Notes under the pieces: generated by a model
Seen by the model: only the letters and a program-made list of their open reading frames with translations
Databases searched by the model: none
Told to the model about the DNA's origin: nothing
Part shown: positions 6,796 to 28,628 of the stretch, one piece after another
How the letters are laid out: each line of letters begins with the position of its first letter
Position numbering within the stretch: position 1 is the stretch's first letter
From: Haliscomenobacteraceae bacterium
GTDB lineage: Bacteria > Bacteroidota > Bacteroidia > Chitinophagales > Saprospiraceae
DNA length: 50,447 nt
Assembly: GCA_947501115.1 (NCBI GenBank)
Contig: CANMVX010000024.1
Location: 1-50,447, forward strand
Direction of reading: 5' to 3'
Translations under genes and position numbers: made by a program

Positions 6796-6824
6796 TTTCC
6801 TTGGATTCTGAGAATCAAAGGAAA
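6796..6824 (-). promoter_or_regulatory. conserved upstream hairpin of FISUMP gene 2
   Basis: The arms TTTCCTTGGATTC and GAATCAAAGGAAA pair with one mismatch around a 3-nt loop. The centre is 91 bp from the ATG at 6719. Hairpins with the same core (CCTT..GATT / AATC..AAGG), a 3-nt loop and almost the same spacing precede the FISUMP genes starting at 8533 and 25189. There is no T-tract, so a terminator is unlikely. Confidence 0.6.
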
Positions 6825-6984
6825 TTTTCCTCAAAATGTGCCTCAAAAGGGTGGAAAAGTGCGAAATGTCATTTTTTTATTGAAAATAATCGAGTAGATG
6901 CTACCTTGAAAAAGCTATCCAGGTAGAGATTATGCGTTGACATATCGACAAATTGCGAAATAAAAAACGGATATTCTAGAAAAA

Positions 6985-7180
6985 AACGCTCCGTCTAAAC
7001 CAAAGATATCCTCTACAATCCTTAAAAAATTTTCATCCTGATTCAGAAATAGGTAAAAGTGGGAGAAATTTACATTTAACCTTTTTTGTAAAAAAGACGA
7101 GGCGTGCATCGTCTCTACAGGACATTCTGCCGCCAGGGGATAATGATCAATAGCCATGTGACCTCAAGGGGTCAGGTATG
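6985..7180. repeat. repeat remnants between FISUMP genes 2 and 3
   Basis: From about 6985 to 7050 there is a degraded right end of the MITE-like element (CTAAACCAAAGATATCC through ATCCTGATTCAG). At 7092-7120 is the GACGAGGCGTGCATCGTC module, and at 7126-7180 the CCGCCAGGGG module with CCTC-AA-GGGG. A short frame here starting MAIDHYPLAA is repeat-encoded and not a gene. Nothing else is seen in 6720-7366 apart from the two hairpins and the 3' element listed separately. Confidence 0.6.
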
Positions 7181-7234
7181 AAAAGGGTAAATTTATTTTA
7201 GGAAAGGTCAGTTTGATTAATACTACTATGAAAA

Positions 7235-7270
7235 TATCCAATTAGACAATTTAACTTGTCTAATTGGATA
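7235..7270 (-). terminator. terminator-like hairpin after FISUMP gene 3
   Basis: A perfect 14-bp stem, TATCCAATTAGACA with TGTCTAATTGGATA, has an 8-nt loop and lies about 97 bp past the stop of the minus-strand FISUMP pseudogene. Confidence 0.6.
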
Positions 7271-7282
7271 CCTTTATTAATA

Positions 7283-7366
7283 CAACATATTTTCCAAAAA
7301 AGCTATGAACCATTCAACAAATCCAACACCACCCACCTGCAAACCTCGCCGCAAAAAGACGAATAG
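7283..7366 (-). other. conserved 3' flanking element of FISUMP gene (copy b)
   Basis: Read on the minus strand after the stop: GCGGCGAGGTTTGCAGG, TGGGTGG, then TTTTTTGGAAAA. The order of words matches the segments following the stops at 1955 and 24272, with a 20-nt insertion before the last word. Confidence 0.5.
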
Positions 7367-8533
7367 TTAATCTTTGAGGCAACGGACTGAATTACCGAAA
7401 TCCTTCCACCAATTATCATCAATTACATTAGCAAGAGAACCAACTATTTGGAGACGGTGAGCATTGTTGGCATCGAAAGCAGTAGAACTCCAGAAAAAAG
7501 CCGCGAGTCCTCGCGAGGAGAAAGCACCATCGCTACCACGAGTACCGCCGGGGCTGGCATTAAAACCAGTTGTACTATTTCCGTCGTTGTTTGGTGACCA
7601 TAAGGTTATACTTTCTTTCATTTTAATTGCTAATCCTGTTAAACCACCATAATGAGTTGTTAGTTGTGTCCATTCAGCATCCGAGGGTACATGCCACTCA
7701 TACGGGCATATATTATTTGTAGAAGATTCTCCATTTGCAGTAATACCAGCGGCTGCATACCAATTATACAAATATCCGTAATTTGAAAGGCCAGAGGGAG
7801 TACCTATGCTGTCGTGAGCGAAAAGAGTATATGCACCGTAATTAAGTCTTAATCCAGCCCATGTTTGACTACTGCTACCTGAAGAGGTTCCTGATTTATC
7901 AAACCTGATATCCTTACCATCATTATATTTTCTAACCCTTAAATTTTCTTGTGTCCAGCATTGAGTGCCAATTAAAACCGTATTGTAAGAATTGTTGTTT
8001 ATGTCAACTATTGGGTTGCCACAAACAAAAGGCGTAGCAGGTTACCGACGTCGATGCTGCAGAAGGCGCAGAATTTCCCACCGCATTGGTTGCCATTACA
8101 GTAAAAGTATAAGGCGTTCCAACCGTTAACCCAGTTATATTGATAAGAGAACTTATACCCGTTGCAGTAATGCTACCAGGACTAACCATCACCGTATATG
8201 AAGTGATTGGACTTACTCCATTATTTGTTGGAGCGGTAAACACAACGCGTACAGCGCTTGAACCCGCCGTAGCCAACACATTAGTCGGAGAACCTGGCAA
8301 CCCACCCGTCGAAGGACCTGGCGTCGTAATTGTAACACAAGGAACCCCTGTACAATTTTCCAACGCCGCTTTTTTCCATCTTACCTTAATTTCCTCTATA
8401 TTAAAGTTAGATTTTTTTCTACCTTTTCACCGTCCCCCAACCTGCTAGCATTATTTATTGTTTGACCTTCAATTTTGTTTAGAAACAATATTAAAATGAA
8501 ACAAAGTGTTAATCTAAAATTTTTCAAAATCAT
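7367..8533 (-). pseudogene. FISUMP protein with Fn3 domain, two frameshifts
   Basis: Three consecutive frames together make one gene. From the ATG at 8533: a signal peptide (MILKNFRLTLCFILILFL... ending near IEGQ), then a break in an A7 tract (8412-8418), where one extra A restores the family segment [18 protein letters not shown] fibronectin-III-like domain follows (SPTNVLATAGSSAVRVVF ... TNAVGNSAPS). A second break at about 8040-8046 is repaired by removing one base and leads into an otherwise complete FISUMP domain (GTQCWTQENL, YNWYAAAG, NICPYEWHVP, RCLKD). The two shifts cancel: 8533 to 7367 is 1167 nt, exactly 389 codons. Either both are real mutations in a decaying gene or one or both are assembly or homopolymer errors. 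The Ig-like units of the 770-residue paralogue are absent. Confidence 0.75.
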
Positions 8534-8610
8534 GCCGTGTCTATTAGAAATTTTTAAGAATTCTCAAATCTATACAACCTAGTATCAACCGACATCAAAA
8601 TGCACTGTTT

Positions 8611-8643
8611 AATCCTTTTGGATTGTAACAATCCAAAGGGATT
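8611..8643 (-). promoter_or_regulatory. conserved upstream hairpin of FISUMP gene 3
   Basis: AATCCTTTTGGATTG and CAATCCAAAGGGATT form a 15-bp stem with one G-U type pair and a 3-nt loop. The centre is 94 bp from the ATG at 8533. The loop-closing pair is G-C here but C-G in the two related hairpins, a compensating change. The remainder of 8534-8985 is very A/T rich with no gene visible. Confidence 0.6.
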
Positions 8644-8985
8644 ACTTATTATTATAATTCTTTAATATGAATTTTATAATTGAAAAGATCAATATATTTT
8701 ATAAAACATTACAAATCAAATATTTGAAATTATTAGAATTGTAATATTTTAAAAAATAAAACTTTTCTTAACTGTTACGGTGCAACGGTATTTTTGAAGA
8801 TTCAAGATAAGGTTTACCTTCAAATTACCTTTGGAATGTGAATTTTCAATCTTATTTTATACTTATAATCTTGTTGAAATGGATTAATTCTTTAATCAAA
8901 AAGTGCGTCACAACGTCGGAAAGAGTCCATAAACATGGCTGTCGGATTTTTTATTCGTGCAGAACATATTTTATTTTGGTGTACT

Positions 8986-9209
8986 GGTTTTGAATCAGGA
9001 TTTTCAAGATTTCGAGAATTAACCATAACGTCGTTGGTTTGATTGGGAAGATTATATTTAAATGGTGCTTTCATTTCCCTGCCTTTCGCCGATGCATTAC
9101 GCATCGGCGAAAAAAAGTGTAAAAAAACTAATCTACGAATAACCTATTACACCCAAACTGAAAACGTCCACTCTAATCCTCAAAATCAAGAAAATCCTGA
9201 TTCAAAACC
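8986..9209. repeat. MITE-like repeat, copy 2 (224 bp)
   Basis: The ends are perfect 19-bp inverted repeats (GGTTTTGAATCAGGATTTT). The central hairpin is TCGCCGATGC / GCATCGGCGA. There is no coding capacity. The 95 bp to its left (8890-8985) are not repeated elsewhere in the window and show no recognisable gene. Confidence 0.8.
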
Positions 9210-9410
9210 AAGTGTTAGGAGGTAAATTTTATATTGAAACCTATCGGGGAAAAAGAGGCGAAGCATCGCGTCTCTACAATGATTGTTATTGTTTCTTAAT
9301 TAGGGAAATACATCCGTATCACGGGAGGCGAATGCAATTCGCCCCTACAATAACGGCATACTATCATCCGTGAAATCCTATAATCCCTAAAATCCGTGAT
9401 TCAAAAACAA
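9210..9410. repeat. composite short repeats next to MITE copy 2
   Basis: This is the same downstream block as after copy 1: GAAACCTATCGGGG with the GAGGCGAAGCATCGCGTC hairpin core (9236-9279), an ATCACGGGAGGCGAATGC stretch, and ATCCGTGAAATCCTATAATCC ending in GTGATTCAAAAAC (about 9368-9409). Confidence 0.7.
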
Positions 9411-9442
9411 GGGACCTCTCTTCCTTTTCGGTTTTTTATTCC

Positions 9443-9450
9443 TATTTTTG
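9443..9450 (+). promoter_or_regulatory. -7 promoter element for the aldo/keto reductase operon
   Basis: TATTTTTG fits the Bacteroidota -7 consensus TAnnTTTG and lies 35 bp before the start codon at 9486. No clear TTG -33 box is visible at the usual distance. Confidence 0.4.
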
Positions 9451-9485
9451 ATTCTGACCAACCCAATGCAAATTAAAAAGCTGAA

Positions 9486-10541
9486 ATGGAACGCATTTTT
9501 TTAACAAAAGACTATTCTATATCCAACATTATTAAAGGTGGATGGCATTTGTCCGGTGGACATGGACCTGTCAATGAAGCGGAGGCTATTCAAGATATGC
9601 GTTCCTTTGTGGAAGCGGGTATCACCACCTTTGATTGTGCCGATATTTATACCGGTGTAGAGGAACTGATTGGCAAATTCTTACGCACCGAACACGATGC
9701 TTTTGTCTCTGGAAATCTGGATGCTGTCCAGATTCATACCAAATATGTGCCGGATTATGACGTTTTGGGCACTATAAAAAAATCGGATACAGAATCAATT
9801 ATAGACCGATCTTTGAAAAGATTAGGCGTCGAACAACTGGATTTGGTGCAGTTTGCCTGGTGGGATTATCAGTTTCCCCGTTATGTCGAGACCGCTATGC
9901 ATTTACATGAATTGCAGCTGGCTGGGAAAATCAGGCATATTGGTGTGACTAATTTCGATGCAGCTCATTTAAAAGAGATACTGGATGCCGGTGTACCCAT
10001 TATCGCCAATCAAGTGCAATATTCAGTATTGGATCATAGACCAGAAAAGGATATGAATCCACTTGCCAGGGAGGCTGGCTTTCATTATCTGTGCTATGGT
10101 GTTATTGCCGGAGGATTTTTGAGTGACCGATATCTGAACACTTCTTCGCCTTCCGAGCCTTTGGAAAACCGATCTCTTACAAAATACAGGCTCATCATTG
10201 AGGAATATGGTGGTTATGACCTTTTTCAATCTTTACTCACAAAACTGCATGAAATAGCAGAGAAGCATAAAGTAGGGATTGCCGAAGTTGCCGCAAGATA
10301 TATCCTTCAGAAACCTCAGGTGGGTGGCATCATCATTGGCGCACGAAATCGGAATCATCTGGAAAAATTATTAAAAATCGAATCTTTTACCTTAGATCAA
10401 GCTGATATTTCTGCCATCGAAGAGATAACCAAAAAGTCAACAGGTCCTGCTGGGCCCGTTTACGATTTGGAAAGAGATAAAAATGGGCCTCACGGTGCCA
10501 TTATGCGCTACAATCTGAATGGACAAAATACGAAGCGGTAA
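9486..10541 (+). CDS. aldo/keto reductase family protein lacking the catalytic histidine
   Basis: The 351 residues follow the AKR (beta/alpha)8 layout: DCADIY carries Asp50 and Tyr55, Lys86 lies in IHTKY, and the C-terminal NADPH-site motif GAR(N) follows IIIGARNRNHL near residue 280. In the tetrad His position the family word VQ(I/F)HWW reads VQFAWW, giving Ala124. Without that histidine, ordinary carbonyl reduction may be impaired or the reaction may differ; steroid 5-beta-reductases are known to change this residue as well. The frame is clean, so this is not simple decay. The stop overlaps the start of the antiporter gene by one base (TAATG), so the two are co-translated in an operon that also includes the TIGR04076 gene. 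Confidence 0.85.
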   Translation: MERIFLTKDYSISNIIKGGWHLSGGHGPVNEAEAIQDMRSFVEAGITTFDCADIYTGVEELIGKFLRTEHDAFVSGNLDAVQIHTKYVPDYDVLGTIKKSDTESIIDRSLKRLGVEQLDLVQFAWWDYQFPRYVETAMHLHELQLAGKIRHIGVTNFDAAHLKEILDAGVPIIANQVQYSVLDHRPEKDMNPLAREAGFHYLCYGVIAGGFLSDRYLNTSSPSEPLENRSLTKYRLIIEEYGGYDLFQSLLTKLHEIAEKHKVGIAEVAARYILQKPQVGGIIIGARNRNHLEKLLKIESFTLDQADISAIEEITKKSTGPAGPVYDLERDKNGPHGAIMRYNLNGQNTKR

Positions 10542-11920
10542 TGACGGAAAAGGAAGCTTTAAATAAGGAAAATTTATCGTTCTACGGCGGAACAATAGGC
10601 GCCATTTTACCCTTTTTTGTATTTGCCACAGGCGTTGTTTTTCTGGCACTCTCAGGTGCACCCGATGAACGCGGATTTTGGCCCATACTCATTGCAGCCC
10701 TAACCGTAGGTATGTTACTGGCCAAAGACAGAAAAGTTTACAGTGAAACGGTTATAAATGGAATGGCTCAGCCCATCGTAATGATTATGTTAACTGCCTG
10801 GATGTTAGCTTCTACTATTGGTGTATTGATGTCTGAAACGGGTTTTGTCAATGCCTTGCTTTGGGTTGCGAGCCAGTTACAATTATCGGCAGCTGGATTT
10901 ACCGCCGTCACCTTTATCATTTGTTGTTTGATATCCCTCTCTACCGGTTCCAGTTTTGCCACCATACTTATAGGTGGACCCTTACTTTATCCGGCTGGAG
11001 GACTTTTAGGTGCCGATTTACCCCTACTTGCCGGCGCTATATTAGCGGGAGCGACCTTTGGCGATTTTTTTGCTCCCATTTCAGATACCACCATTGCCAG
11101 TGCATTAAGCCAGGAAGCACCCATCGGCGCAACGGTTAAAAGCAGGCTTCGATTTATAATACCATTGGCCATCATTTTATTACCCATTTATTATTTTTTA
11201 AGTAAAGCCTATTCAGGAAATATTTCCGACGGAGAAAAATTAACGGGTGACCCTGCCGGACTTCCCATGTTCTTGATTCCTGCGTTTATCATTTTCCTGT
11301 TTCTAAAAGGTAAACATTTACTCCACGGATTATTATTTGGCCTCCTTGCAGGGGTAATTCTTGGTTGGGGACTTGGCTTATTGCCAATAACAAAAATCAT
11401 ATCTTTAGATTTGGAGAATTTCCGTGCGCAAAGCTTTATCATAGAAGGCATCAACAGAGCCACAGGCATCAGTTTTTTCACCATTCTACTTATGGGTCTT
11501 GTGGAAACATTAAAAGGAAGTGGGTTAATTGACCGCCTGGTTCAATGGGCTGCAAATCATAGCCATAGCCCGCGGCAAGCGGAAAGCTGGATAGCTGCCG
11601 CCGGAAGTATAGCTGTTCTCCTAACCACGCATAGCATTGTAGCGATACTTATGGTGGCTGATTTTACGCGACAAACAGGAGAAAAACAGGGGATTGATCC
11701 TATCAGAAGAGCTAATTTACTTAGCATGGTGGTATGTGTTTTCCCCTTCCTTCTACCCTATTTCATTCCAGTTATTTTAATGGCCAATACAACAAATAGT
11801 GGTAAACCATTTGATATTGCAGCCGTTTCTCCTTTACAAGCTGGCTTGCATAATTTCATTTCCTGGGGTCTGGCTATTATCACTATCGGCTCTCTTTTGT
11901 GGAAAAAGAACAAACAATAA
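10541..11920 (+). CDS. NhaC-family Na+/H+ antiporter-like membrane protein
   Basis: A 459-residue polytopic membrane protein of the Na_H_antiporter/NhaC family (COG1757). The core signature GATFGDFFAPISDTTIASAL (about residues 170-190) corresponds to the conserved G-x-x-F-G-D-x-x-S/P-P-x-S-D-T-T of NhaC. About eleven to twelve hydrophobic segments are visible. Family members exchange Na+ (or an organic anion) for H+ at the cytoplasmic membrane; in this operon, with an aldo/keto reductase, transport of a metabolite rather than Na+ homeostasis is possible. It starts on the ATG overlapping the previous stop and is followed 4 bp later by the next gene. Confidence 0.85.
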   Translation: MTEKEALNKENLSFYGGTIGAILPFFVFATGVVFLALSGAPDERGFWPILIAALTVGMLLAKDRKVYSETVINGMAQPIVMIMLTAWMLASTIGVLMSETGFVNALLWVASQLQLSAAGFTAVTFIICCLISLSTGSSFATILIGGPLLYPAGGLLGADLPLLAGAILAGATFGDFFAPISDTTIASALSQEAPIGATVKSRLRFIIPLAIILLPIYYFLSKAYSGNISDGEKLTGDPAGLPMFLIPAFIIFLFLKGKHLLHGLLFGLLAGVILGWGLGLLPITKIISLDLENFRAQSFIIEGINRATGISFFTILLMGLVETLKGSGLIDRLVQWAANHSHSPRQAESWIAAAGSIAVLLTTHSIVAILMVADFTRQTGEKQGIDPIRRANLLSMVVCVFPFLLPYFIPVILMANTTNSGKPFDIAAVSPLQAGLHNFISWGLAIITIGSLLWKKNKQ

Positions 11921-11924
11921 TAAA

Positions 11925-12281
11925 ATGAGTGAAAACAATTCCTTAAGGTCTGACCAGTTTGAACTTTATGATTTACGCATAGTTGTGGAACAAATTAACG
12001 GACACTGTACCTGCAACATGAATATCGGAGACTGTTTTTACCTTCGCGGAGGTAAATTATCCATGCCCGACAAGGCAGATTTCTGCCTGTATGCCCTACA
12101 ATCAGCTATTCCACTTTTACCCGCAAAACAAAGAAAAAATCACCCCGCAGACTGGATGGAAACCGATGCGCGTGTAACTTGCCCTGACCCTGCCTGTGGT
12201 CTCATTTTAAGGATTGACAGGGAAGAAATACGGGTACTCAATCATGACGATGTAAGCCCCATTCCCTGGGAGGAAGAATAG
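11925..12281 (+). CDS. TIGR04076 family protein
   Basis: A 118-residue soluble protein. An in-frame opening exists upstream inside the antiporter gene, but the ATG at 11925, 4 bp after that gene's stop, gives the family-length product beginning MSENNSLRSDQFELYDLRI. The family pattern is clear: VxxxxGxC (INGHCTC), GDxF (IGDCFYLRG), C-x-(F/Y)-A-L (FCLYALQSAIP), and VTCPDPACGLILRI. Cysteines are frequent and could bind a metal or participate in thiol chemistry, but no function has been established for the family to my knowledge. It is probably co-transcribed with the AKR and antiporter genes. Confidence 0.8.
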   Translation: MSENNSLRSDQFELYDLRIVVEQINGHCTCNMNIGDCFYLRGGKLSMPDKADFCLYALQSAIPLLPAKQRKNHPADWMETDARVTCPDPACGLILRIDREEIRVLNHDDVSPIPWEEE

Positions 12282-12330
12282 TCTACCTTGAGGAAAGTTT
12301 AAACTTTATCTACCATTTGTTATTATTAGT

Positions 12331-12355
12331 TGACATTTCTAATCACCAAATGTCA
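12331..12355 (+). promoter_or_regulatory. inverted repeat touching the DUF2256 start codon
   Basis: TGACATTT and AAATGTCA are perfect 8-bp arms around a 9-nt loop; the right arm ends on the A of the start codon. It could be an operator or an mRNA hairpin limiting initiation. An AAAGTTTAAACTTT palindrome (12294-12307) also lies in this gap and may be a weak terminator of the upstream operon. Confidence 0.35.
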
Positions 12356-12504
12356 TGAAAGCGATAAAGAAGGGAGATTTACCGGAAAAAATATGTGCTA
12401 CCTGTAACAGGCCCTTTTCCTGGCGTAAAAAATGGGAGAAAAATTGGTTGGAAGTAAAATATTGTAGTCAAAAATGCAGCCTTAATAAGACTAAAAATGC
12501 CTGA
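12355..12504 (+). CDS. DUF2256 domain protein (49 aa)
   Basis: A small basic protein beginning MKAIKKGDLPEKI. The family motif is complete: CATC, RPFSWRKKW, NW..VKYCS and KC, i.e. two CxxC/CxxxC-like pairs suited to binding a Zn ion (Cys14, Cys17, Cys37, Cys41). DUF2256 genes are typically found beside cryptochrome/photolyase-related genes, and here the stop codon overlaps the next start by 8 bases (ATGCCTGA), so the two are translationally coupled. The role is unknown; an accessory of the photolyase-like protein is the natural guess. Confidence 0.85.
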   Translation: MKAIKKGDLPEKICATCNRPFSWRKKWEKNWLEVKYCSQKCSLNKTKNA

Positions 12505-13972
12505 TACTGGAATTGTTTTCCCCCACCAACTATTTGAACGTAGTGAAATAATAGATCAATGCCAAACCGTTTTTCTCATAGAAGAATGGCTTTTTTTTCG
12601 GCAATATCGTTTCCATAAAAAGAAGATTGCTTTCCATAGAGCAAGCATGAAATTTTATCAATCTTACTTAGAAAGTCTAAATAAGAAGGTCATTTATATA
12701 GATTCCTTTAATGAACTAAGTGACATTCGGCAGTTAATAGCGCATCTACCTTCCTTAAATATCAGGGAACTGGCCTATATTGACCCTACAGACTATTTGT
12801 TAGCGCGAAGGATAAACACGGCGGCAGAGAAAAACGAGGTAGTTCTGACCTCCTTTTCTTCTCCTCTTTTTCTAAATACGTCTGACGAAAACAAACAGTA
12901 TTTCGCAGATAAAAAGCGGTTTTTTCAGACAGATTTCTACATTCATCAGCGAAAAAAAAGGAAAATACTGGTGGATGATTTTTCAAAACCCATGGGTGGT
13001 AAGTGGTCTTTTGACGATGAAAACCGATTGAAATATCCAAAAGGGAAAATCCCTCCACAAACTACTTTTGAACGCTCGAATTCATTTCACGAGGAAGCTA
13101 TCATTTATACAAACACACATTTCTCAAGTCATTATGGTGAAATAGATGCCGAATATTTATTTCCTGTCACCTACGAAGAGAGTAAAAAATGGTTACTGGA
13201 ATTCTTTCAAACCAGATTTGAAGAATTTGGTAAATACGAGGACGCCATTGTCCAAAATGAAAAGTGGTTACATCATAGCCTATTGACTCCCTTGTTAAAT
13301 GTTGGTTTGCTAAGCCCTTCTTTTGTTATAGATGAAACTTTAAAATATGCCGCTGAACATCAGATTCCCCAAAATTCTCTGGAAGGTTTTATTCGTCAGA
13401 TTGTGGGTTGGAGGGAATTCATCAGAGCGGTTTATGAATTAAAAGGAACCGAAGAACGAACTAAAAACTTTTGGGGCTTTAAACGGAAAATTCCAGAAAG
13501 TTTCTGGAAAGGGGAAACGGGAATTTTACCCATTGACCTGACCATAAAAAAAGTATTGGAAACGGGTTATTGCCATCATATAGAAAGACTGATGGTTCTG
13601 GGTAACTTTATGCTCCTCTGCGAGTTTGACCCAGAGGAGGTTTATCGATGGTTTATGGAGCTATTTATTGACTCCTTTGACTGGGTTATGGTGCCGAATG
13701 TTTATGGAATGAGTCAATTTGCAGACGGTGGTATCATGTCCACTAAACCCTATATTAGCGGCAGTAATTATTTAATGAAAATGAGTGATTATCCTAAAGG
13801 GGATTGGCAGCCAGTGTGGGATAGCTTATTCTGGCATTTTATGGATAAACAACGGGCGTTTTTTCTGGGAAATCCAAGATTAGGCATGTTAGTAAGGACC
13901 TTTGATAAAATGTCGGACGATAAAAAACAAGATCATTTAACAAAAGCTGATTTTTATTTACATAGTTTATAA
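12497..13972 (+). CDS. cryptochrome/photolyase-related protein (DPRP/FeS-BCP family) without Fe-S cysteines
   Basis: A 491-residue protein of the deoxyribodipyrimidine photolyase-related family (PF04244, COG3046). Recognisable parts: an N-terminal alpha/beta antenna domain (MPDTGIVFPHQLFE), GGKWSFDDENR (about 165-175), EGFIRQIVGWREFIRAVY (about 295-315) and the FAD domain HHIERLMVLGNF, WVMVPNVYGMSQFADGG and KPYISGSNYLMKMSDY. Members of this family repair (6-4) photoproducts or act as light sensors with FAD and usually a [4Fe-4S] cluster. Here the cysteine before the HHI segment is replaced (PIDL), and the CxxC...C loop after MSDY is shortened to PKGDWQPVWDSLFW, so none of the four ligands remains. 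Repair activity cannot be judged from sequence. Confidence 0.88.
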   Translation: MPDTGIVFPHQLFERSEIIDQCQTVFLIEEWLFFRQYRFHKKKIAFHRASMKFYQSYLESLNKKVIYIDSFNELSDIRQLIAHLPSLNIRELAYIDPTDYLLARRINTAAEKNEVVLTSFSSPLFLNTSDENKQYFADKKRFFQTDFYIHQRKKRKILVDDFSKPMGGKWSFDDENRLKYPKGKIPPQTTFERSNSFHEEAIIYTNTHFSSHYGEIDAEYLFPVTYEESKKWLLEFFQTRFEEFGKYEDAIVQNEKWLHHSLLTPLLNVGLLSPSFVIDETLKYAAEHQIPQNSLEGFIRQIVGWREFIRAVYELKGTEERTKNFWGFKRKIPESFWKGETGILPIDLTIKKVLETGYCHHIERLMVLGNFMLLCEFDPEEVYRWFMELFIDSFDWVMVPNVYGMSQFADGGIMSTKPYISGSNYLMKMSDYPKGDWQPVWDSLFWHFMDKQRAFFLGNPRLGMLVRTFDKMSDDKKQDHLTKADFYLHSL

Positions 13973-14016
13973 GTATTATCATATAGAATTAGTTAAAGTT
14001 CATCGTACTTTGTCCC

Positions 14017-14024
14017 TACTTTTG
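14017..14024 (+). promoter_or_regulatory. -7 promoter element for the VIT/P-ATPase pair
   Basis: TACTTTTG matches TAnnTTTG and lies 46 bp before the ATG at 14071; no good -33 box is visible. Confidence 0.35.
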
Positions 14025-14070
14025 TTCTAATCAATTTATGCCCTCATTTTTTACTTAAACGAACCCTTTT

Positions 14071-15168
14071 ATGGATTTAAAAAACATTCAAACGGAGATT
14101 GATGCCAGTTATTTATATAAACAACTGAGTAAGGTAGAAAAAGATGCCAATGTAGCTCAGGTTTTTGCTCAAATGAGTGACATAGAAATGAGTCATGCTG
14201 TGGCCTTTGCCAAAAAATTTAATTTAAGCGCAGATCAACTTCCAAAACCATCAGGCAGAGCGAGAATCCTTAATAAAATTGGAGAAATCATTGGTTACGA
14301 TTATGTATTAGGCGTATTGCTTGATACGGAGAAAAGCATTTCATCGGCGGTACAACATGCCCGAAAAAATTCGAATGCTCAAAGCTCCATTTCAGATACG
14401 GCGCATGTGACTATCCTGAAAAATATATTAAATAATCACAAATACATTTCCAGTGATAATGTAGTAAGATTTGAGAAAAAACACCGATCTGTGGGTGGAA
14501 ATGCCTTAAGAGCAGCTGTTTTAGGTGGAAATGACGGCTTGGTTTCCAATTTCAGTCTTGTTATGGGTATCGCGGGAGCAACCAGTGGCCAATCGGAAGT
14601 TTTACTGGCTGGCTTAGCCGGACTATTAGCCGGTGCATTATCTATGGCATTGGGTGAATGGATATCGGTGAAAAGTTCCCAGGAATTATATGAAAATCAG
14701 ATGGATTTAGAAATGGAAGAACTGGAAACAAATCCAGAGGGGGAAGAAAAGGAACTTGCTCTGATTTACATAACGAAAGGGATTCCAGAAGCCCAGGCCA
14801 TTCAAATGGCTAAAGAAATCATGTTAGATAAAGGTCAGGCACACGAAATATTGGTCAGGGAAGAACTGGGTATAAACGTCGATGAAATGAAAGGTTCAGC
14901 GATGGAGGCAGCCGTCACTTCTTTTGTTTTATTCGCTGTTGGCGCTATATTACCCGTTATTCCTTTCTTTTTTGTAGGTGGTATGATGGCTATCCTTTTC
15001 AGTGCTACTTTAAGTGCTATAGGATTGTTTATCATCGGTGCAGCTATCACTTTATTTACAGGTAAAAATGTACTTTTTTCGGGATTCAGACAAGTTGCCT
15101 TCGGATTGATTGCCGCCGCAATAACTTTTGGTATTGGTCATTTTATCGGAATTTCCATAGCAGGTTAA
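14071..15168 (+). CDS. ferritin-like domain fused to VIT1/CCC1-type iron/manganese transporter
   Basis: The first ~150 residues form a ferritin-like (rubrerythrin/MbfA-type) four-helix domain with Glu and His candidates for a di-iron site (TEIDASYLYKQLSKVE; DIEMSHAVAFAK). Residues ~160-365 are a VIT1 membrane domain: GGNDGLVSNFSLVMGIAGA in helix 1, MALGEWISVKSSQELYENQ, the acidic metal-binding stretch MDLEMEELETNPEGEEKEL, and three further hydrophobic helices. The family exports Fe2+ or Mn2+ from the cytoplasm, and the ferritin-like part is thought to sense or deliver the metal. The P-type ATPase gene starts 10 bp after the stop, indicating a two-gene metal-efflux or homeostasis operon. Confidence 0.88.
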   Translation: MDLKNIQTEIDASYLYKQLSKVEKDANVAQVFAQMSDIEMSHAVAFAKKFNLSADQLPKPSGRARILNKIGEIIGYDYVLGVLLDTEKSISSAVQHARKNSNAQSSISDTAHVTILKNILNNHKYISSDNVVRFEKKHRSVGGNALRAAVLGGNDGLVSNFSLVMGIAGATSGQSEVLLAGLAGLLAGALSMALGEWISVKSSQELYENQMDLEMEELETNPEGEEKELALIYITKGIPEAQAIQMAKEIMLDKGQAHEILVREELGINVDEMKGSAMEAAVTSFVLFAVGAILPVIPFFFVGGMMAILFSATLSAIGLFIIGAAITLFTGKNVLFSGFRQVAFGLIAAAITFGIGHFIGISIAG

Positions 15169-15178
15169 CAATCAATAC

Positions 15179-17635: not shown

Positions 17636-17642
17636 AAAAGAT

Positions 17643-17703: not shown

Positions 17704-17708
17704 TATAT

Positions 17709-17748: not shown

Positions 17749-17749
17749 A

Positions 17750-20700
17750 TTAAATGGAAGAAAGATATTCTACCAAATCCCTTATTTCACGTTTTGATAA
17801 AACGGATCCCATGGCCGGCATGGCCGACGGGAAATTTTCTCTACTTTTTATCCTTGAAATGGGCACTCTTAATGGTTCGGCTGCAGAGGTTTTCAATAAA
17901 AGCTCCTCCGCATTTTCCCTCATCAAAACACCACTCACTTCCTGTCCGTCAGCTAAAACAAGGGACACCATACCAAATCCGGGCGCAATACGAGCACTTG
18001 GCTCAATCAAAGACTGGAGAATTTGCTCGCGAGTCAATGATTTACCAATATCTTTTAGATTTGGGCCAACGATACTTCCACCATCACCAATAGCATGACA
18101 GCGAATACATTGAGCTGCCGAATTATTAAGAAAAATATTTCTTCCTTCTCTAACATTGCCACCAAAGAGCGCGTCATTATAATGATCTGTTTCAGACCCT
18201 TTACCTTTAATTTTGTCAACTTTCGCCAATAAATCATTATCTTTTGTAGCCTCTACCGACTCTATGAGGTCAAGTTTAACATTTGGAGAAAGTTTGGCTT
18301 CTGCCATTTTATCAATTAATTCTGACAAAACAACGCGGGTATTATCAATAGGCATTTGGCTCAATACCTTAAAAACCTGTTGCTGCTCTTGAAAACTACC
18401 ATTTTCAAAAACAGGATTTACAATCAGGGAAAGGCCTTCTTTACTGACATTAAGTTTATTTATAAGGCCCAATGAGGTAGTTCTAACTGTTTTGTCCTTG
18501 TCGCTAATCCCTTTTTTTACTAAATCTGCAATCGATGTATATTTTAAATTTGCCAAAGAGGTAATGGTCGCAACCCGGACTTCAGGACTTTCTGATGAAT
18601 TAAAAATGCTTGCCAATGATTCGTTATAGTCTGCAATATTAAGTTCCGACAATAATTTCACAGAAGAAATTAAAACAGCGGGATTATTACTTTGCAGGAA
18701 GCTCACCATTTTATTCTTGATTTTTGCATTGACCAATGCGGCATCGCGCACTAATTCACCACGAAATCTTCCATCCACTCTATCTAGCACAGATGGATTC
18801 GCCCAAGTACCAATGACAGAAAGTGCCTCCGCCTTCAAATCTTCCGGAATATTTTCCTTTTCAGCATAAGCGATAAGCAAATCTAATTCCTTTTCACCCC
18901 CTACTCTCAAACAAGCATTGATGGCACGTCTGATTAACGGTTCATTATTAAAACGAGATTGTCCCAACATATTGGCCAGGGCAGGTAATGCAGAAACGAT
19001 GGACAAATCGTCATTAATAGCCCTTGCTGCTTCAGTAACGATGTATTCATCTTCGTCATTTAAAAAAGAAGCCATTTCCTTATGACTCCATTTTCTAAGA
19101 ACCAAAACCGCCAATAAGCGTAGCGATTTATTTGCATTTGATTTCAACTGTAAGATTGGTTCCACCTCCCCGATTCTGCTTAGCGCTAAAACGGCGGCAT
19201 GTCTCAAATAAACATCCTCATCTTTATTTTTCTCTACCATCGTTAAAATGGCGTTAATTGCCTTTTTATCTTTCATTCGACCAATGGCTTGAGTGGCAAA
19301 AAAACTTACGCGCGGATTTGAGTGATTAATTAGCGGGATAATTTTATCATTTGCAGCAGCAAAACGAACGTCCCCCAATGTTTTTAGGGTTTGTGCAATA
19401 ATTTCCTGATCAGCATCATTTAGCAGGGAAATCAGTGATGAAGCGGCATTTACATCTTTTTGAGCGAATTGACCGATGCCCCAAATGGCATGAATGCGCG
19501 CCAGTTGATTTTTCCTATCTCCAATTACCTGTTTAAATATCTCCAAACCCTTAGGGCCACGAGCGACCAATTCAAATTGCGCTTTAAGTCTGATCCTGTA
19601 ATCCTCGTAAGCTAAAAGACTTGCCAGTTGGGATTCAGCTAATTTATTAAAACGTTGGGTCATCCATTTTTTTGTCTCTAAACGTTTTGCGGCAAAAGCA
19701 TCATCTGTTGATTTAACATCGATTTTCCAGATTCGTCCATAATTTTTGGTATCCCAGCCAGTGACCCAATCGGCAGCGTACAGGGCGCCATCGATACCAA
19801 AACGAATACCTGTTGGCAGGATACCTGTGGTTAACATTTTTTCACCATCCAGTACAAAAGAGGCACCCTTAGGTTTTAGGCCAAAGGAATAGATATGAGA
19901 ACCGGAAGAATTTCCAACAAATTCAACCAGGAAAAATTTATTTAAATATTCTTTCCCCAAAGCGGTTCCAGGATTATACACCATTCCAGTAGGACCGTTA
20001 TGAAAATTTTGAATGGGAGGAATGATGTAGGCAGCTTGTCCTTCCCAGCGGGCGGTATAAAGTTTCTCCTTCATCCAGACATTATATCCATTATTCCGGG
20101 GATCGGTATATTTTCCATATTGCCAGTTGGAACGCCAGCCAGAATCACTACCATCGACCAAATGCACCAATCTTTCACTCTCCCCCTGATGATCGCCATC
20201 ATTATCAGAAGAAATTAGATTGCCATATTCATCGAAAACGAACTCATGATCATTTCTGATACCATGCGCTACGACTTCAAAATCGGTACCATCCGGATTT
20301 GAACGAACTAATACCCCTTCATTGGGATATTCGTGTTTTACCCCTGCTTTATCGACGATATTTGCGCCAATATCACCAATTTGCCAATAAATTTTACCAT
20401 CCGGGCCTTGAATTACCCCCGACATACCGTGGGCACCAAAACCAATATGAACGGCATAACCATGGCTAATTGATTCTTTGGACTCATAAAATCCGTCTTT
20501 ATTTTTATCCGTCAAACGCCACATATCAGGACCAGTGCACCAAAATGCATCATCCTCTCTGACGAGGACACCACCTGCAACGTCAGTAATTTCCTCACTG
20601 GGACCGACGAAAACCTTTGTAGATGTTTCAGCGACACCATCGCCATCTTTGTCTTCGACCCGCCAGATTTCATCTTTTTCAACGGTCAAATCTTTCCAAT

Positions 20701-21127
20701 CATGGCTTCCATCCTCATTTAAATCTTTCAGCCATTTATTTTTTTCAGAATTTTCAGGGGCAAATGTTTTCCTTAAAAAAGCACGTCGATCTTCGACAGA
20801 TTGCAAGCTAATAGATGCCGTCATCCAGTCTCTATGACCCCGAATATCGAATTCAGAATTTTTCTGACGGACGGCACGGGTGATGTAAGCCCGACCCAGG
20901 TTGTCAATTTCTAGGGAAACCGGATCGGGAGAAAGGGAATCTGATGCCCATAAATCCATTTTAAGGCCATCAGCCAATTGAATGGAAGATTTATCTAAAA
21001 CTTGCTTCGTTTTTTGACTGATAAATCCATTATCTAGCTTGATAATGTCCAGATTTTTAACATTCAAGCAAGAAATGAAACCAAGCAATAAAAGAAAAAA
21101 AGCACTTTTGCGAAAAAAAATGGTCAT
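17750..21127 (-). CDS. PVC-type cytochrome: beta-propeller, HEAT repeats and C-terminal heme domain
   Basis: A 1125-residue exported lipoprotein candidate (signal with lipobox-like FISC, Cys20). Layout: a TIGR02604-type glucose/sorbosone-dehydrogenase-like propeller (about 50-490; IDNLGRAYITRA, DKDGDGVAETSTKVF, HGIRNDHEFVFDEYGNL, SGWRSNWQYG), a long array of HEAT-like alpha repeats (about 510-960) and a C-terminal cytochrome c domain with CIRCH at about residues 1007-1011 and a distal methionine region (PGFGMVSLVLADGQEVSG). Proteins of this type (PVC-type heme-binding, TIGR02603) are abundant in Planctomycetes and also occur in Bacteroidota; they probably oxidise sugars or sugar derivatives and pass electrons to the heme. 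It lies next to a heme lipoprotein gene and a secreted FAD oxidoreductase, consistent with a periplasmic oxidation pathway. Confidence 0.88.
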   Translation of the reverse strand: MTIFFRKSAFFLLLLGFISCLNVKNLDIIKLDNGFISQKTKQVLDKSSIQLADGLKMDLWASDSLSPDPVSLEIDNLGRAYITRAVRQKNSEFDIRGHRDWMTASISLQSVEDRRAFLRKTFAPENSEKNKWLKDLNEDGSHDWKDLTVEKDEIWRVEDKDGDGVAETSTKVFVGPSEEITDVAGGVLVREDDAFWCTGPDMWRLTDKNKDGFYESKESISHGYAVHIGFGAHGMSGVIQGPDGKIYWQIGDIGANIVDKAGVKHEYPNEGVLVRSNPDGTDFEVVAHGIRNDHEFVFDEYGNLISSDNDGDHQGESERLVHLVDGSDSGWRSNWQYGKYTDPRNNGYNVWMKEKLYTARWEGQAAYIIPPIQNFHNGPTGMVYNPGTALGKEYLNKFFLVEFVGNSSGSHIYSFGLKPKGASFVLDGEKMLTTGILPTGIRFGIDGALYAADWVTGWDTKNYGRIWKIDVKSTDDAFAAKRLETKKWMTQRFNKLAESQLASLLAYEDYRIRLKAQFELVARGPKGLEIFKQVIGDRKNQLARIHAIWGIGQFAQKDVNAASSLISLLNDADQEIIAQTLKTLGDVRFAAANDKIIPLINHSNPRVSFFATQAIGRMKDKKAINAILTMVEKNKDEDVYLRHAAVLALSRIGEVEPILQLKSNANKSLRLLAVLVLRKWSHKEMASFLNDEDEYIVTEAARAINDDLSIVSALPALANMLGQSRFNNEPLIRRAINACLRVGGEKELDLLIAYAEKENIPEDLKAEALSVIGTWANPSVLDRVDGRFRGELVRDAALVNAKIKNKMVSFLQSNNPAVLISSVKLLSELNIADYNESLASIFNSSESPEVRVATITSLANLKYTSIADLVKKGISDKDKTVRTTSLGLINKLNVSKEGLSLIVNPVFENGSFQEQQQVFKVLSQMPIDNTRVVLSELIDKMAEAKLSPNVKLDLIESVEATKDNDLLAKVDKIKGKGSETDHYNDALFGGNVREGRNIFLNNSAAQCIRCHAIGDGGSIVGPNLKDIGKSLTREQILQSLIEPSARIAPGFGMVSLVLADGQEVSGVLMRENAEELLLKTSAAEPLRVPISRIKSRENFPSAMPAMGSVLSKREIRDLVEYLSSI

Positions 21128-21135
21128 AATAAATA

Positions 21136-21181
21136 GGATTTAGGTTTAAGTACTACAAGTTAAAAATAAAAACCTAAATCC
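21136..21181 (-). terminator. hairpin between heme lipoprotein and PVC-type cytochrome
   Basis: GGATTTAGGTTT and AAACCTAAATCC form a perfect 12-bp stem with a 22-nt loop, 31 bp past the stop of the Tll0287-like gene and upstream of the cytochrome start. Confidence 0.55.
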
Positions 21182-21211
21182 AACTTTTTATTTTTTTGCT
21201 AAAGAAACCTT

Positions 21212-21696
21212 CTATACTCCTCTAGGGTCTTTAATTTTACTAAGCGTAGGAGCGTCTATATCTTTCGCTTCCCCATGACATTTCAAACAAGTAGGCATAC
21301 CAATACGAATAGGTGCATAATAAATAGAGGCATTTTTATTTTGGTAATACTTAATATTCCCTTTCGATAGCGCCTTTAAAGCGACCATGTCCTGTTTCGA
21401 TGGTTTATTCATCGGATTCCTATATTTTTCTGAAACGCGGGTGATAGAAACACCATGAATATTTGAGATACTGTCCAGCAAAGGAAGGGCGTTTTCATTA
21501 CAAAAAGTAATGGCATGAGGTGCTCCATGCTCCGAAATTTTCTGGGAAACTGTTTTTACCAGGGTTTGCTGACTTATGCCAACTATGTTTTCTGCCAGGA
21601 AGAATTACAGGAAATGAGGGTAATCATAAAAAAGGCGATGGATAAAACCTTACCCCAATGACCCAGGAAATTAAAATGTAGGAACATACTTTTCAT
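21212..21696 (-). pseudogene. Tll0287-like (DUF3365) heme lipoprotein, single frameshift
   Basis: An ATG at 21696 opens a lipoprotein signal peptide (MKSMFLHFNFLGHWGKVLS..., lipobox LISC), but this frame hits a TAG after NSSWQKT. One added base near 21590-21595 joins it to SSWQENIVGISQQTLVK and continues to the stop at 21212, giving about 161 residues. The second part holds the DUF3365/Tll0287-like features: HAITFCN, GVSITRVSEKYRNPMNKP, YYAPIRIGMPTCLKCHGEA, i.e. a CxxCH c-type heme site. Such proteins are periplasmic heme proteins, some used as sensor domains. The shift may be a true mutation or a sequence error; the remainder of the coding sequence is well preserved. Confidence 0.75.
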
Positions 21697-21821
21697 TTTT
21701 ACATAAAGATTAAAAAAAGGATTAGAAGTTAAAGTAATATGAATCACATAAGGCATTAAACATCCATTTATTAAAATGGCAACTATTCAGAAAATCTATT
21801 GTTAGCGATAAAAAACAACCT

Positions 21822-22142
21822 ATGAATCGCCGGTATTTTACCCTATTTATCCTTTCTAATCTGTTTTTTCTAGCGAATGGAAACGCTCAGGCCATCCCCA
21901 TGACCTTTCATAATGGCTCCTTGAAATCAATACCTTTACAAATACCAGTTGTAATGAACCCCAATTTATCTCCCTTATCAGATAGCGGAGTTACGTTGGA
22001 GGTAGGGCAAAAAGTATTTTATTTTCCAAATGGTAAAAAGGGAAGGAAAGATTTACTTTTTTCGGTAACCTCAGATTGGAAAAAAGATACTGTTTTTCAA
22101 ATTCATGAGATGATTAGACAAAAGAAGCAGCTTTCCGAATAA
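21822..22142 (+). CDS. small exported protein of unknown function
   Basis: A 106-residue protein with a convincing Sec signal peptide (MNRRYFTLFILSNLFFLANGNAQA), then a basic mature part (VGQKVFYFPNGKKGRKDLLF). No domain recognised. It stands alone on the plus strand between two minus-strand genes; its 3' end is 31 bp from the stop of the FAD oxidoreductase. The family could be specific to Bacteroidota. A cell-envelope or periplasmic location is the only inference I would make. Confidence 0.65.
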   Translation: MNRRYFTLFILSNLFFLANGNAQAIPMTFHNGSLKSIPLQIPVVMNPNLSPLSDSGVTLEVGQKVFYFPNGKKGRKDLLFSVTSDWKKDTVFQIHEMIRQKKQLSE

Positions 22143-22173
22143 ATTTCTAAAATATTCTTTGGCATCTACTTTC

Positions 22174-23847
22174 TTAATTGGTTAAAATCTGATTTTTATT
22201 TTCCAACAACTTTTTTAATTGAATGTAAGAAACGTCTTGAATGGCGCATTTTTCATCAATAGCCAAACAAGCGGCAACAGCTGCCGATTGCCCGAGAATC
22301 ATAAATACGGGTTCCATACGAATGGAGCCATACGCAATATGGCTGCTGGAAACACAAACAGGAACAAACAGATTGGTACATTCCTCTTTTTTGGGAACAA
22401 TTGAACCATAGGAAATACGATATGGCCCTGGCGGTTTAACCCCAATATCTCCCTCATTCTGGACATATCCCTCCGAAGTGACATATCGTTGGGTATTATG
22501 AGAATCAATATGATAAGATCCCATTCCAATGGATTCAGGGGTTTCAATTCTTTGCATCACATCATGTTCTGTCGTAATATAATCACCAATCATTCGTCTC
22601 GACTCCCGAACATAAATTTGGTGTGGCCAATGATTATTATCCTTAAACTCGTCTTTAGCAAGACCATAGGATGCCATTTTCGTTCTAATAGCATCGGGAA
22701 CACGGGGATCATTGGCAACAAACCATAATAAGCCCGCCTGATAATCATAATGTTGCTTAATGATTTCCGCGCGGCGCTGATAATCAGCTTCCGGATAATC
22801 ATAATTCATACCTATAAAATCAGAGCTGAAGGCTCCATGATTATTTGTATCCGTTTTCTTATTGGGGAGAACATCGAACTTGCTGAACCAATCATTCCTG
22901 CCCGTATTAAATTCCCTTAGCAATAATTCATAATTGGAGGCATCATAATTGTCGGGTTTTGGAAATGGCACGCTATTTTCTGGATGATTAGTCATACACA
23001 TTCTAAAACAATAAGCCTGAATTTTTTTGTCCGCAGCACCAAATTCACCAGGAGGTTCTGCTGAAATGTATGGAAGTAATCCGCTAGACGGATCATCCTT
23101 GATTTTATAGGGTGAAATATTAGATTTAAAATGATGATCATGTTGAAAAACACCCGTTTGAACCCCATTAAATGTTTCGTTATACTTAGCGTTACCTTCC
23201 CTACCTACATGAAAATTAATTCCGGCAGCTGCCATCAAATCACCTTCATAAGTAGCATCAATGAACATTTTACCTTTAAAAACCTTACCTGAAAGTGTTG
23301 AAAAAGAAATAATTTCTCCCTTCTTTTTTACCACCCCCTTGTTTCTATCCAGCCGTTCACCCCGAAGAACCTTAATATTATTTTCTCGTACAAAATCCTC
23401 AAAAACCTTTTCTGCAACATGCGGCTCAAACAGCCACATAGTGCGAAATTCACCATCCATAGCGACAGTTCCTTGACCTTTATTTCCAAAATCACTTTGA
23501 TTTTGCCAGTTCCATGCAGCATCATCCTTATAATGCAGCCAGACCCTATGATAAAATTCTCGGGAAAGACCTCCGATAACAGCCTTATTTCCGGTATCTG
23601 TAAATCCCAATCCACCTGAAGTCAGGCCACCGAGATGTTGATCGGGGGAAACAATCAATACCGTTTTACCGGACTTCACAACTTCCACAGCGGCGATGAT
23701 AGCCGCAGAGGTACCCCCATAAATTATAATATCAGCAGTATAAACCTCCTTGAATTCGGGTTGATTGTTTTTAATAATCCTTCCAGCATCGGTGTTTGAC
23801 AGAAAGGTAAAAGCTGCAATAAATATCAATATCCAATTTTTCATCAT
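22174..23847 (-). CDS. secreted FAD-dependent oxidoreductase (PF12831 type)
   Basis: A 557-residue protein with an N-terminal signal peptide (MMKNWILIFIAAFTFLSNTDA). The FAD-binding fold starts at IIIYGGTSAAIIAAVEVVKSGKTVLIV, with QHLGGLTSGGLGFTD and later FIDATYEGDLMAAAG, SYHIDSHNTQRYV and a closing GQSAAVAACLAI that completes the dinucleotide site. This matches the FAD-dependent oxidoreductase family PF12831, widespread in Planctomycetes and Bacteroidota and often co-located with secreted sugar-degradation enzymes. Substrate unknown. The glycine pattern is GGTSAA rather than GxGxxG, which is common in this family. Neighbouring exported cytochromes could accept its electrons. Confidence 0.85.
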   Translation of the reverse strand: MMKNWILIFIAAFTFLSNTDAGRIIKNNQPEFKEVYTADIIIYGGTSAAIIAAVEVVKSGKTVLIVSPDQHLGGLTSGGLGFTDTGNKAVIGGLSREFYHRVWLHYKDDAAWNWQNQSDFGNKGQGTVAMDGEFRTMWLFEPHVAEKVFEDFVRENNIKVLRGERLDRNKGVVKKKGEIISFSTLSGKVFKGKMFIDATYEGDLMAAAGINFHVGREGNAKYNETFNGVQTGVFQHDHHFKSNISPYKIKDDPSSGLLPYISAEPPGEFGAADKKIQAYCFRMCMTNHPENSVPFPKPDNYDASNYELLLREFNTGRNDWFSKFDVLPNKKTDTNNHGAFSSDFIGMNYDYPEADYQRRAEIIKQHYDYQAGLLWFVANDPRVPDAIRTKMASYGLAKDEFKDNNHWPHQIYVRESRRMIGDYITTEHDVMQRIETPESIGMGSYHIDSHNTQRYVTSEGYVQNEGDIGVKPPGPYRISYGSIVPKKEECTNLFVPVCVSSSHIAYGSIRMEPVFMILGQSAAVAACLAIDEKCAIQDVSYIQLKKLLENKNQILTN

Positions 23848-23932
23848 TGACGGAGCGTTTTAAAAATATATTTAAATATATGGAAAAAAGGCGGAAAATG
23901 TATGAAAAATTTGGGTGGGTGGCGGCGTAAAG

Positions 23933-24150
23933 TTTGAATCAGGATTTACAGGATTTCGAGGATTACCTAAACGTCTCCGGTTTGAGGTGGGAAGGTTATT
24001 ATTAAACGGTATATTCATTACTAAGCCTCTCGCCGATGCGTAACGCAGCGGCGAAAAGGATGATAAAAAGTAATCCTCTACGAATGATCATTACATCCAA
24101 ACTGAAGACGTCCTCTTTAATCCTAAAAATCCTGTAAATCCTGATTCAAA
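23933..24150. repeat. MITE-like repeat, copy 3 (218 bp)
   Basis: Perfect 24-bp inverted ends (TTTGAATCAGGATTTACAGG...). The central hairpin has arms TCGCCGATGCGT and ACGCAGCGGCGA with one mismatch: one arm matches copy 4 and the other matches copy 1. No gene is seen in 23848-24271; the right part is the 3' element of the next feature. Confidence 0.8.
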
Positions 24151-24209
24151 AATAATTAATAGGAGAAATTGTCTCATTTTCAAACTTAACCATTTTAAAG
24201 AAAATATCA

Positions 24210-24271
24210 TGATTTTTTCCAAAAACCGCGCCTGCCAACCCGCAAGCCTCGCCCATGAAATATACAAATGG
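24210..24271 (-). other. conserved 3' flanking element of FISUMP gene (copy c)
   Basis: Minus strand after the stop: GGGCGAGGCTTGCGGGTTGG, CAGGCGC, GTTTTTGGAAAA, the same ordered words as after the stops at 1955 and 7367. Confidence 0.5.
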
Positions 24272-25189
24272 TCAATCCTTGAGGCAGCGGACGGAAGCAC
24301 CAATACCCTTTTTGTCGACGCCGTAGTTGCTTCCCCTTCTCACATCGCCTTGGTAGTGGTACAGGTAGCGGCACCAGGCGTCGTTGGTGTTGATCTCGGT
24401 AGAACTCCAAAAGAAAGCGTTCCAATTCTTATTATTGAACCCACCATCGTAATTGCGATAACCACATGGGAGAGCGGAAAAGCCGGAATCGTCAGTTCCT
24501 GGGTTTGCTGTCCATAAGGCATCATTTTTTTTCAGCTTAGTACCCGCCTCCATGCTCTGAACAACAGAAGTAGCAGATGTATCAGCTCCTGAATGTATAA
24601 ATCTTACTAATTTATTCCAATCAGAATCTGTAGGCTGGCACGTGCCAGCCTACAGGGCAGATATTTTTTTATGTCGTGCTTCCAATGGATGCAATACCCT
24701 TTACATTCCAGTAGATGCATTAACTGTGATAGTTCCCGTCGCATTCACACTGCCACATCCCGTTAAGGGAATGGTGTAGTTGAAGGTACCCGCAACAACC
24801 GTTGGTGTGCCACTGATCTTAATCACATTACTAGCCCAAGCAGCTGAAACGCCATTGGGTAAGCCCGACGCAGTTCCAATACCTGTAGCTCCCGTAGTCG
24901 TCGATATAGTAATTGGAGATGTAATTAGAGTACCGGAAGTTAGAATTGTTACAGATGGCGTAGATACAGTACACACATTTGTAATAGTACACGGCACCCC
25001 AGTACAATTCTCCAAAGCCGCCTTCTTCCAGCGCACTTTAATCTCTTCTAAATTAAATAAAGCATTCCTTTTTATTTCTATAGGAACCTTATCATTCAAT
25101 TGGGTATTTTTTGGCATAGCCACTTTTGAGTTAGACTGGGCAAAACTCAAAAGTGGTAGCAAGGACATCAGTAAAATTCTAAGTGTCAT
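24272..25189 (-). pseudogene. decayed FISUMP protein gene
   Basis: From the ATG at 25189: a signal peptide almost identical to that of the 770-residue paralogue ([18 protein letters not shown]), the [14 protein letters not shown] segment and one Ig-like unit ([30 protein letters not shown]). The frame then ends. Family comparison shows three lesions: the N-terminal half of the FISUMP domain (about 110 codons) is deleted at about 24705, where the sequence jumps to [11 protein letters not shown]; a TAA interrupts it at 24669-24671; and a 4-base insertion at 24628-24655 shifts the frame after GWHVP. After that the remaining FISUMP part (KLVRFIHSGADT... to ASVRCLKD) is readable to 24272. The gene lies downstream of AraC-type gene B, mirroring the arrangement at 1955-3842. 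Confidence 0.8.
24628..24655. other. 28-bp perfect palindrome causing a frameshift
   Basis: CTGTAGGCTGGCAC is followed directly by its reverse complement. In the paralogues the same place reads GTAGGAACATGCCAACCTG or similar, an imperfect palindrome 4 bases shorter. The extra bases (CTGG) are exactly those needed to complete the symmetry. Confidence 0.85.
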
Positions 25190-25262
25190 TTTATGATTTT
25201 TAAAATGTTTAATAATCACAAAACTCACCAGGATAATGCCTTAATCCAAAAGTTCAATCCAA

Positions 25263-25297
25263 AAATTCCTTAAGATTCGAGGAATCTTAAGGAATTT
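25263..25297 (-). promoter_or_regulatory. conserved upstream hairpin of FISUMP gene 4
   Basis: AAATTCCTTAAGATTC and GAATCTTAAGGAATTT form a perfect 16-bp stem with a 3-nt loop. The centre is 91 bp from the ATG at 25189, the same as for the gene at 4407-6719. It also lies about 120 bp downstream of AraC-type gene B and has a short T-run on the minus strand, so a terminator role there is an alternative. Confidence 0.6.
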
Positions 25298-28624: not shown

Positions 28625-28628
28625 TTGG

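Follow-up and report, generated by a model that had tools for sequence, protein, structure and literature searches.

Regulators of the AraC/XylS family, among them AraC and ToxT, carry a C-terminal AraC-type double helix-turn-helix (HTH) of ~100 amino acids, and the footprint of one AraC domain is ~17 bp. In the Bacteroidota, passages of a study of the Bacteroides hybrid two-component systems (HTCS) describe membrane-linked AraC-type regulators that are located beside their targets and have direct-repeat motifs (PMC3878776). Here, we analyzed a window of 50,447 nucleotides, the whole stretch examined from contig CANMVX010000024.1 of a Haliscomenobacteraceae bacterium (assembly GCA_947501115.1; Bacteroidota, Saprospiraceae), which contains three inverted repeats upstream of genes for FISUMP proteins and two genes for membrane proteins that end in an AraC-type domain. 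We consider it likely that the repeat is a local dimer operator for the membrane AraC-type activator encoded in the same small locus. The likeness to the AraC/XylS family lies in the C-terminal domain of the regulator, which matches HTH_18 and the structures 2k9s and 3gbg, and in the length of the repeat arms, which is close to the footprint of one AraC domain. The differences are that the N-terminal part of the regulator is a membrane domain and that the half-sites are near-perfect and inverted around a 3-nt center, with a spelling that varies by locus. The arrangement of membrane-linked AraC-type regulators adjoining their targets is shared with the Bacteroides HTCS, but the repeat is inverted and not direct as in the HTCS motifs described in that study (PMC3878776), the targets are FISUMP and other secreted proteins, and Pfam finds no histidine kinase or receiver domain in the two window regulators, for which HTH_18 is the sole match.

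All three window repeats are read on the reverse strand, as are the genes that follow them. The copy at 6796-6824 has 13-bp arms with one mismatch around the center TCA, and lies 5' of a proposed target gene (4407-6719) that encodes an fn3 and FISUMP protein with a signal-peptide-like start and an IKVRWKK segment. The copy at 8610-8644 has 16-bp arms, also with one mismatch, around the center TTA and lies 5' of a second proposed target, the frame-broken FISUMP gene 7370-8533, whereas the copy at 25263-25297 has perfect 16-bp arms around the center CTC and is located between an AraC-type gene and a third proposed target, the frame-broken FISUMP gene 24275-25189. In both of the imperfect stems the mismatch is internal. 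The repeats that lead the two frame-broken genes are intact or nearly so. Three hairpins with a 3-nt loop had been predicted here from the sequence, and all three were found again, as were the loop-closing pairs, C-G in two and G-C in the third. The predicted spacings of 91, 94 and 91 bp to the start codon differ from the 90, 93 and 90 nt that we count from center to ATG (6796, 8610 and 25263 copies, respectively) by counting convention only. The genes behind the hairpins are of the FISUMP type as predicted, although those starting at 8533 and 25189 are frame-broken. Approximately 50 bp of sequence reported as shared further upstream proved to be a block from about -80 to -18 that occurs at many sites of the family; of the window copies, the one at 6796 has it clearly and the one at 25263 weakly, whereas the one at 8610 lacks it.

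The claim that pairing is kept while the sequence changes is borne out beyond chance, both by shuffling and by the 16 repeats of the source genome described below. Among eight copies from this genome, 93.0% of 128 cells are paired and nine cells are unpaired; two-sided changes account for 16 cells, and no cell shows a one-sided change with pairing kept. None of 500 shuffles, which ignore relatedness between the copies, matched either the pairing percentage or the covariation score. An intrinsic terminator was considered and rejected, as the stems read as AT-rich and, in agreement with the original prediction, a T-run is missing from two of the window copies and follows only the one at 25263.

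The analysis as a whole is based on the sequence of draft metagenome-assembled genomes, in which many contigs end inside target genes; the source genome comprises 4.70 Mb in 175 contigs. A covariance model, R1, built from the eight copies detected 16 sites in this genome. Across the family the repeat measures 29-35 bp with a 3-nt center. In a search of 40 genomes with R1, strong matches were confined to the source genome and five of six genomes of the same genus; no strong match was found outside the genus, where eight genomes gave weak matches (best E 0.02). We retained 36 of 37 sites, removing G005:C65:241803 (E=7e-4) as probably unrelated. A class-wide search gave matches in 28 of 395 genomes. 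With the start codon assigned mechanically as that of the longest ATG frame, the ATG lies 86-94 nt past the repeat center at 23 of the 36 sites. In the source genome, 12 of the 16 repeats precede a gene with the IKVRWKK segment (one of them cut after four codons), three precede another type of secreted-protein gene, one of them with a CHU_C type IX signal domain, and one precedes a regulator gene. Conversely, of the 19 IKVRWKK genes in the genome, 11 have the repeat and eight, at least one of which is frame-broken, do not. Therefore, contrary to what had been suggested, the hairpin is not specific to this gene family: related genes lack it and other genes carry it. The same holds for FISUMP genes, for the repeat leads only eight of the genome's 48 FISUMP (TIGR02145) matches, some of the others being cut by contig ends, and FISUMP genes that lack the hairpin, the outcome named in the original prediction as counting against it, thus exist. 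The IKVRWKK segment itself (window 6510-6602 and 18 further places in this genome) varies in what follows it on the C-terminal side, which is either FISUMP or, as in L119 2147-2920, fn3 only.

Two palindromes of other kinds were set apart from the family. One, at L161 4200-4240, was excluded as the probable terminator of the preceding gene, given its T-run. The other, a palindrome resembling repetitive extragenic palindromic (REP) elements, TCGCCGATGCGTNACGCATCGGCGA, occurs in the window at 1368-1392, 9086-9110, 24030-24054 and 28807-28831 and at 42 places in the genome (allowing up to three mismatches), with symmetric variants and with some copies ~300 bp apart. For the operator-like repeat, a REP-like dispersed palindrome was ruled out by its fixed spacing to a promoter-like box.

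This box lies downstream of the repeat. In the window, putative -7 boxes on the reverse strand are CACATTTG at 6749-6756, TAGATTTG at 8565-8572 and GAGTTTTG at 25219-25226, with the A at +54, +55 and +54 from the repeat center, respectively. The motif ANNTTTG starts at +54 in 27 of the 36 sites and in 13 of a non-redundant set of 20 sites, defined by stretches from +18 to +95 that are <70% identical; ANNTTT is found at +54 or +55 in 18 of these 20. For the box, spacing and loop comparisons, the site C52:26881, with a loop shorter by a single base, was moved by one position. At stricter identity thresholds of 55% and 45%, TTTG is at +57 in 8 of 14 and 5 of 8 sites, whereas 2000 shuffles never gave TTTG, at its best offset, in more than 4 of 20, 3 of 14 and 3 of 8. 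The upstream block, with its own TTTG at -26, is present at 10 of the 20 sites, each of which also has the downstream box; the downstream box occurs alone at eight sites and the upstream TTTG alone at none. No conserved -33 element was apparent in the 20 sites, as columns +21 to +53 all hold 0.8 bits or less. In Flavobacterium psychrophilum the Bacteroidota -7 element TAnnTTTG is placed at -12 to -5 in passages of PMC9723704. Given the resemblance of the box to this element, the center of the repeat would fall near -65, and the repeat is probably located upstream of a promoter. The lack of a -33 element would fit an activated promoter, activation being suggested by the position of the repeat.

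The proposed regulator is encoded on the reverse strand at 25418-26611 and was identified from Pfam, hydropathy and a structural model as a membrane protein with a C-terminal AraC-type DNA-binding domain; a paralogous membrane AraC-type regulator lies at 2658-3842 on the same strand, downstream of the FISUMP gene 4407-6719. Both window proteins (394 and 397 amino acids) match HTH_18 above the Pfam cut-off, and both show several hydrophobic stretches in a simple hydropathy scan. A profile of the regulator matches the DNA-binding domains of AraC (2k9s, 1.8e-6) and ToxT (3gbg). By this domain, a C-terminal AraC-type double HTH of ~100 amino acids, the regulators are predicted members of the AraC/XylS family. 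The model of the 25418-26611 protein, from a 12-row alignment with a mean predicted local distance difference test (pLDDT) score of 78.2 and a predicted template modeling (pTM) score of 0.61, has seven long helices within residues 2-246 and a helical domain at 283-396.

Regulator and repeat are physically linked. The source genome has seven such regulator genes (E≤1e-10), and the 40-genome search gave 18 (E≤1e-25), all within the genus. Fifteen of these 18 share a contig with the repeat, and the remaining three (C66, G001:C89 and G001:C185) are next to a FISUMP gene that runs off the contig at its 5' end. The gene order is either repeat-target-regulator or regulator-repeat-target, and at C22:61361 and G001:C171:3997 the repeat precedes a regulator gene. 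In the G004:C91 regulator (L137 1250-2419), which is next to a repeat, codon 20 of the aligned stretch is an in-frame stop; this gene may be defective or may start further downstream. AAA_35-type ATPase genes were found near membrane AraC-type genes at three loci (window 27062-28825; L142 1487-3049; L119 4577-6139). At L121 640-1026 (G000:C106), a short frame resembling a secreted protein precedes a short AraC-like HTH frame of a different type.

Linkage is accompanied by covariation, as the spelling of the repeat follows the HTH of the regulator and not its membrane part. Across 14 loci, HTH distance correlates with repeat distance (r=0.50, p=0.0001), and does so when the membrane part is taken into account (r=0.43, p=0.0004). 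The membrane part correlates with repeat distance as well (r=0.33, p=0.002), but not once the HTH is taken into account (r=-0.15, p=0.92). With the two most divergent loci removed, leaving 12, the partial correlation between HTH and repeat is r=0.46 (p=0.0009). For this test, no pairing was made between the repeat C48:27801 and the C48 regulator, as the regulator of this repeat is presumed to lie off the contig; C24:8606 was left unpaired and the partial C46 regulator was excluded; the smaller distance was taken where a locus has two repeats; and the G004:C91 regulator was included, aligned with an X at its stop.

Homologs in other genera, including a Chitinophagaceae-labeled locus, L159 (identical to G828:C160), share 26-31% identity with the window regulator. 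We examined 33 distant loci, 11 of which have no downstream open reading frame to score, leaving 22; partial regulators (L196 and L197) were excluded from scoring. A repeat lies between the regulator and the next gene at seven of the 22 (G831, G874, G826, G279, G286, G263 and L159), the repeats of G279 and G286 being weak alone (reached by 2 and 4 of 100 shuffles). That of G826, unrelated in spelling, is perfect (16+3+16) and located 86 nt 5' of the ATG. TTTG is found at +58 in G279, G286 and G826 (in the last also at +46) and at +47.5 to +48.5 in G263, L159 (also at +69.5) and G831, two spacing classes approximately one helical turn apart; in G874 there is no TTTG within +35 to +75 of the repeat center. 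Of 196 upstream regions of distant loci, 29 contain a palindrome with a score of at least 8. By Fisher test, a repeat is present at six of the eight best-matching loci against 16 of 192 controls (p=2e-5), or at four of eight if it must lie ≤200 bp from the ATG (p=0.004), a result that is weakened as four of the eight came from the search alignment and had partly been seen beforehand, and further weakened as the control regions were a fixed 200 bp. Three of four new matches from outside the search alignment (E<1e-100) have a repeat (p=0.003; by genus, two of three, p=0.02). These data are suggestive of a pairing of repeat and regulator that extends beyond the genus.

The strong pairing with two-sided changes is what would be expected of a structured 5' leader RNA, in which a transcribed hairpin controls translation or stability of the mRNA, and the TTTG at -26 of the upstream block could at 10 of the 20 sites be a second promoter that places the repeat within the transcript. 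However, the downstream box is present at 18 of the 20 sites and the upstream box alone at none, the loop is not conserved, and Rfam gave no match at the gathering threshold across the whole window. In 27 distinct repeats of 16 pairs there are 406 Watson-Crick, three G-T and 23 other cells, and G-T makes up three of the 14 non-Watson-Crick cells in the inner 14 pairs, which is no excess. We therefore regard a leader RNA, one of the two readings originally proposed, as quite unlikely. The 12 distinct 3-nt centers include five reverse-complement pairs (simulated chance 0.00005 to 0.00055), and in G005:C148 two copies with flanks that are 100% and 96% identical have exactly inverted central 5-mers. 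Passages of PMC8604942 attribute homogenization of the arms and inversion of the spacer in quasipalindromes to template switching, known there from yeast coding DNA and proposed here for a bacterial operator. Given the loop inversions and the lack of a G-T excess, the RNA-like covariation is better explained by DNA, namely a dimer operator in which each arm corrects the other. The same inversions and two-sided changes would be expected if a chance inverted repeat were kept perfect by template switching (PMC8604942) with no function at all, but such a by-product leaves the fixed box spacing, the linkage and the HTH covariation unexplained, and we find it extremely improbable.

An operator for another, unlinked DNA-binding protein, with the AraC-type gene merely part of the duplicated locus, would accommodate the 14 of 28 repeat-bearing contigs that have no regulator of this clade, and palindromes suit many dimeric regulators. 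Against this, it is the HTH of the linked regulator that the repeat covaries with, not the membrane part, and some distant regulators have differently spelled repeats of similar geometry, which makes it unlikely. The repeat could also be a recombination or mobile-cassette site at which upstream and downstream modules are exchanged. Many pairwise alignments end at +14 to +17 or start at -15 to -22, C173 combines a C104-type upstream half with a C52-type downstream half, and C6 and C85 share only -76 to +16; yet the spacing to the promoter-like box is constant across dissimilar leaders, and as an account of the repeat this is very unlikely. At G000:C173:2783 and G000:C6:124233, the repeat is the junction between an upstream and a downstream module of different types, which suggests promoter exchange, and such exchange of modules may genuinely occur as a side effect.

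Under the local operator reading, two inverted half-sites of ~13-16 bp around a 3-nt center would be bound by a dimer of AraC-type domains, with the operator center ~65 bp 5' of the predicted transcription start. The regulator, which may sense a membrane signal, would probably activate a promoter without a conserved -33 element. It would act on genes for secreted surface proteins, many of which contain FISUMP domains, and in some cases on its own gene. Template switching during replication would let each arm serve as template for the other and so produce the symmetric changes, with the spelling following the HTH of the regulator. The proposal of an operator for the adjacent regulator, one of the two possibilities raised in the original prediction, gains from the gene linkage, the fixed spacing to the -7-like box and the covariation of HTH and repeat, and to a lesser degree from the repeats beside some distant homologs. 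Several observations weigh against it, in addition to the prior knowledge of some best-matching distant loci. Half of the repeat-bearing contigs have no regulator of this clade, and while seven of these 14 end ≤1.4 kb downstream of the repeat, seven do not. Two of the 20 non-redundant sites have neither the downstream box nor the upstream TTTG. The loci in the covariation test are related by duplication, and pairing repeats with regulators involved choices. Fifteen of the 22 scored distant loci show no clear repeat (the best being reached by at least 5 of 100 shuffles), including G224, where a large gene with a signal-peptide-like start comes next. Among 76 pairs of sites in which one or both flanks are 75% identical, counts that are non-independent between related sites, the loop is the same in 27, the reverse complement in 8 and otherwise different in 41, so that other changes outnumber inversions. 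Finally, as the HTCS motifs described in PMC3878776 are direct repeats, AraC-type domains would not by default be expected to have an inverted repeat as their motif.

Among the matches listed from the open-access literature, no title dealt with the regulation of FISUMP or related surface proteins. If true, the local operator would assign a DNA target to one group of membrane AraC-type regulators and open a way, through sequence, to the control of FISUMP and related surface proteins. It would also mean that RNA-like covariation can arise from a DNA operator via template switching, a pitfall in covariation screening, and the many natural regulator-operator pairs would be a resource for reading an AraC recognition code. 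More tentatively, a clade of membrane AraC-type regulators in the Bacteroidota may be expanding along with surface-protein genes, with template switching, by passing every fresh mutation on to the opposite arm, moving a dimer operator to a new spelling in one step, such that regulator and operator could co-diversify into private, mutually insulated pairs.

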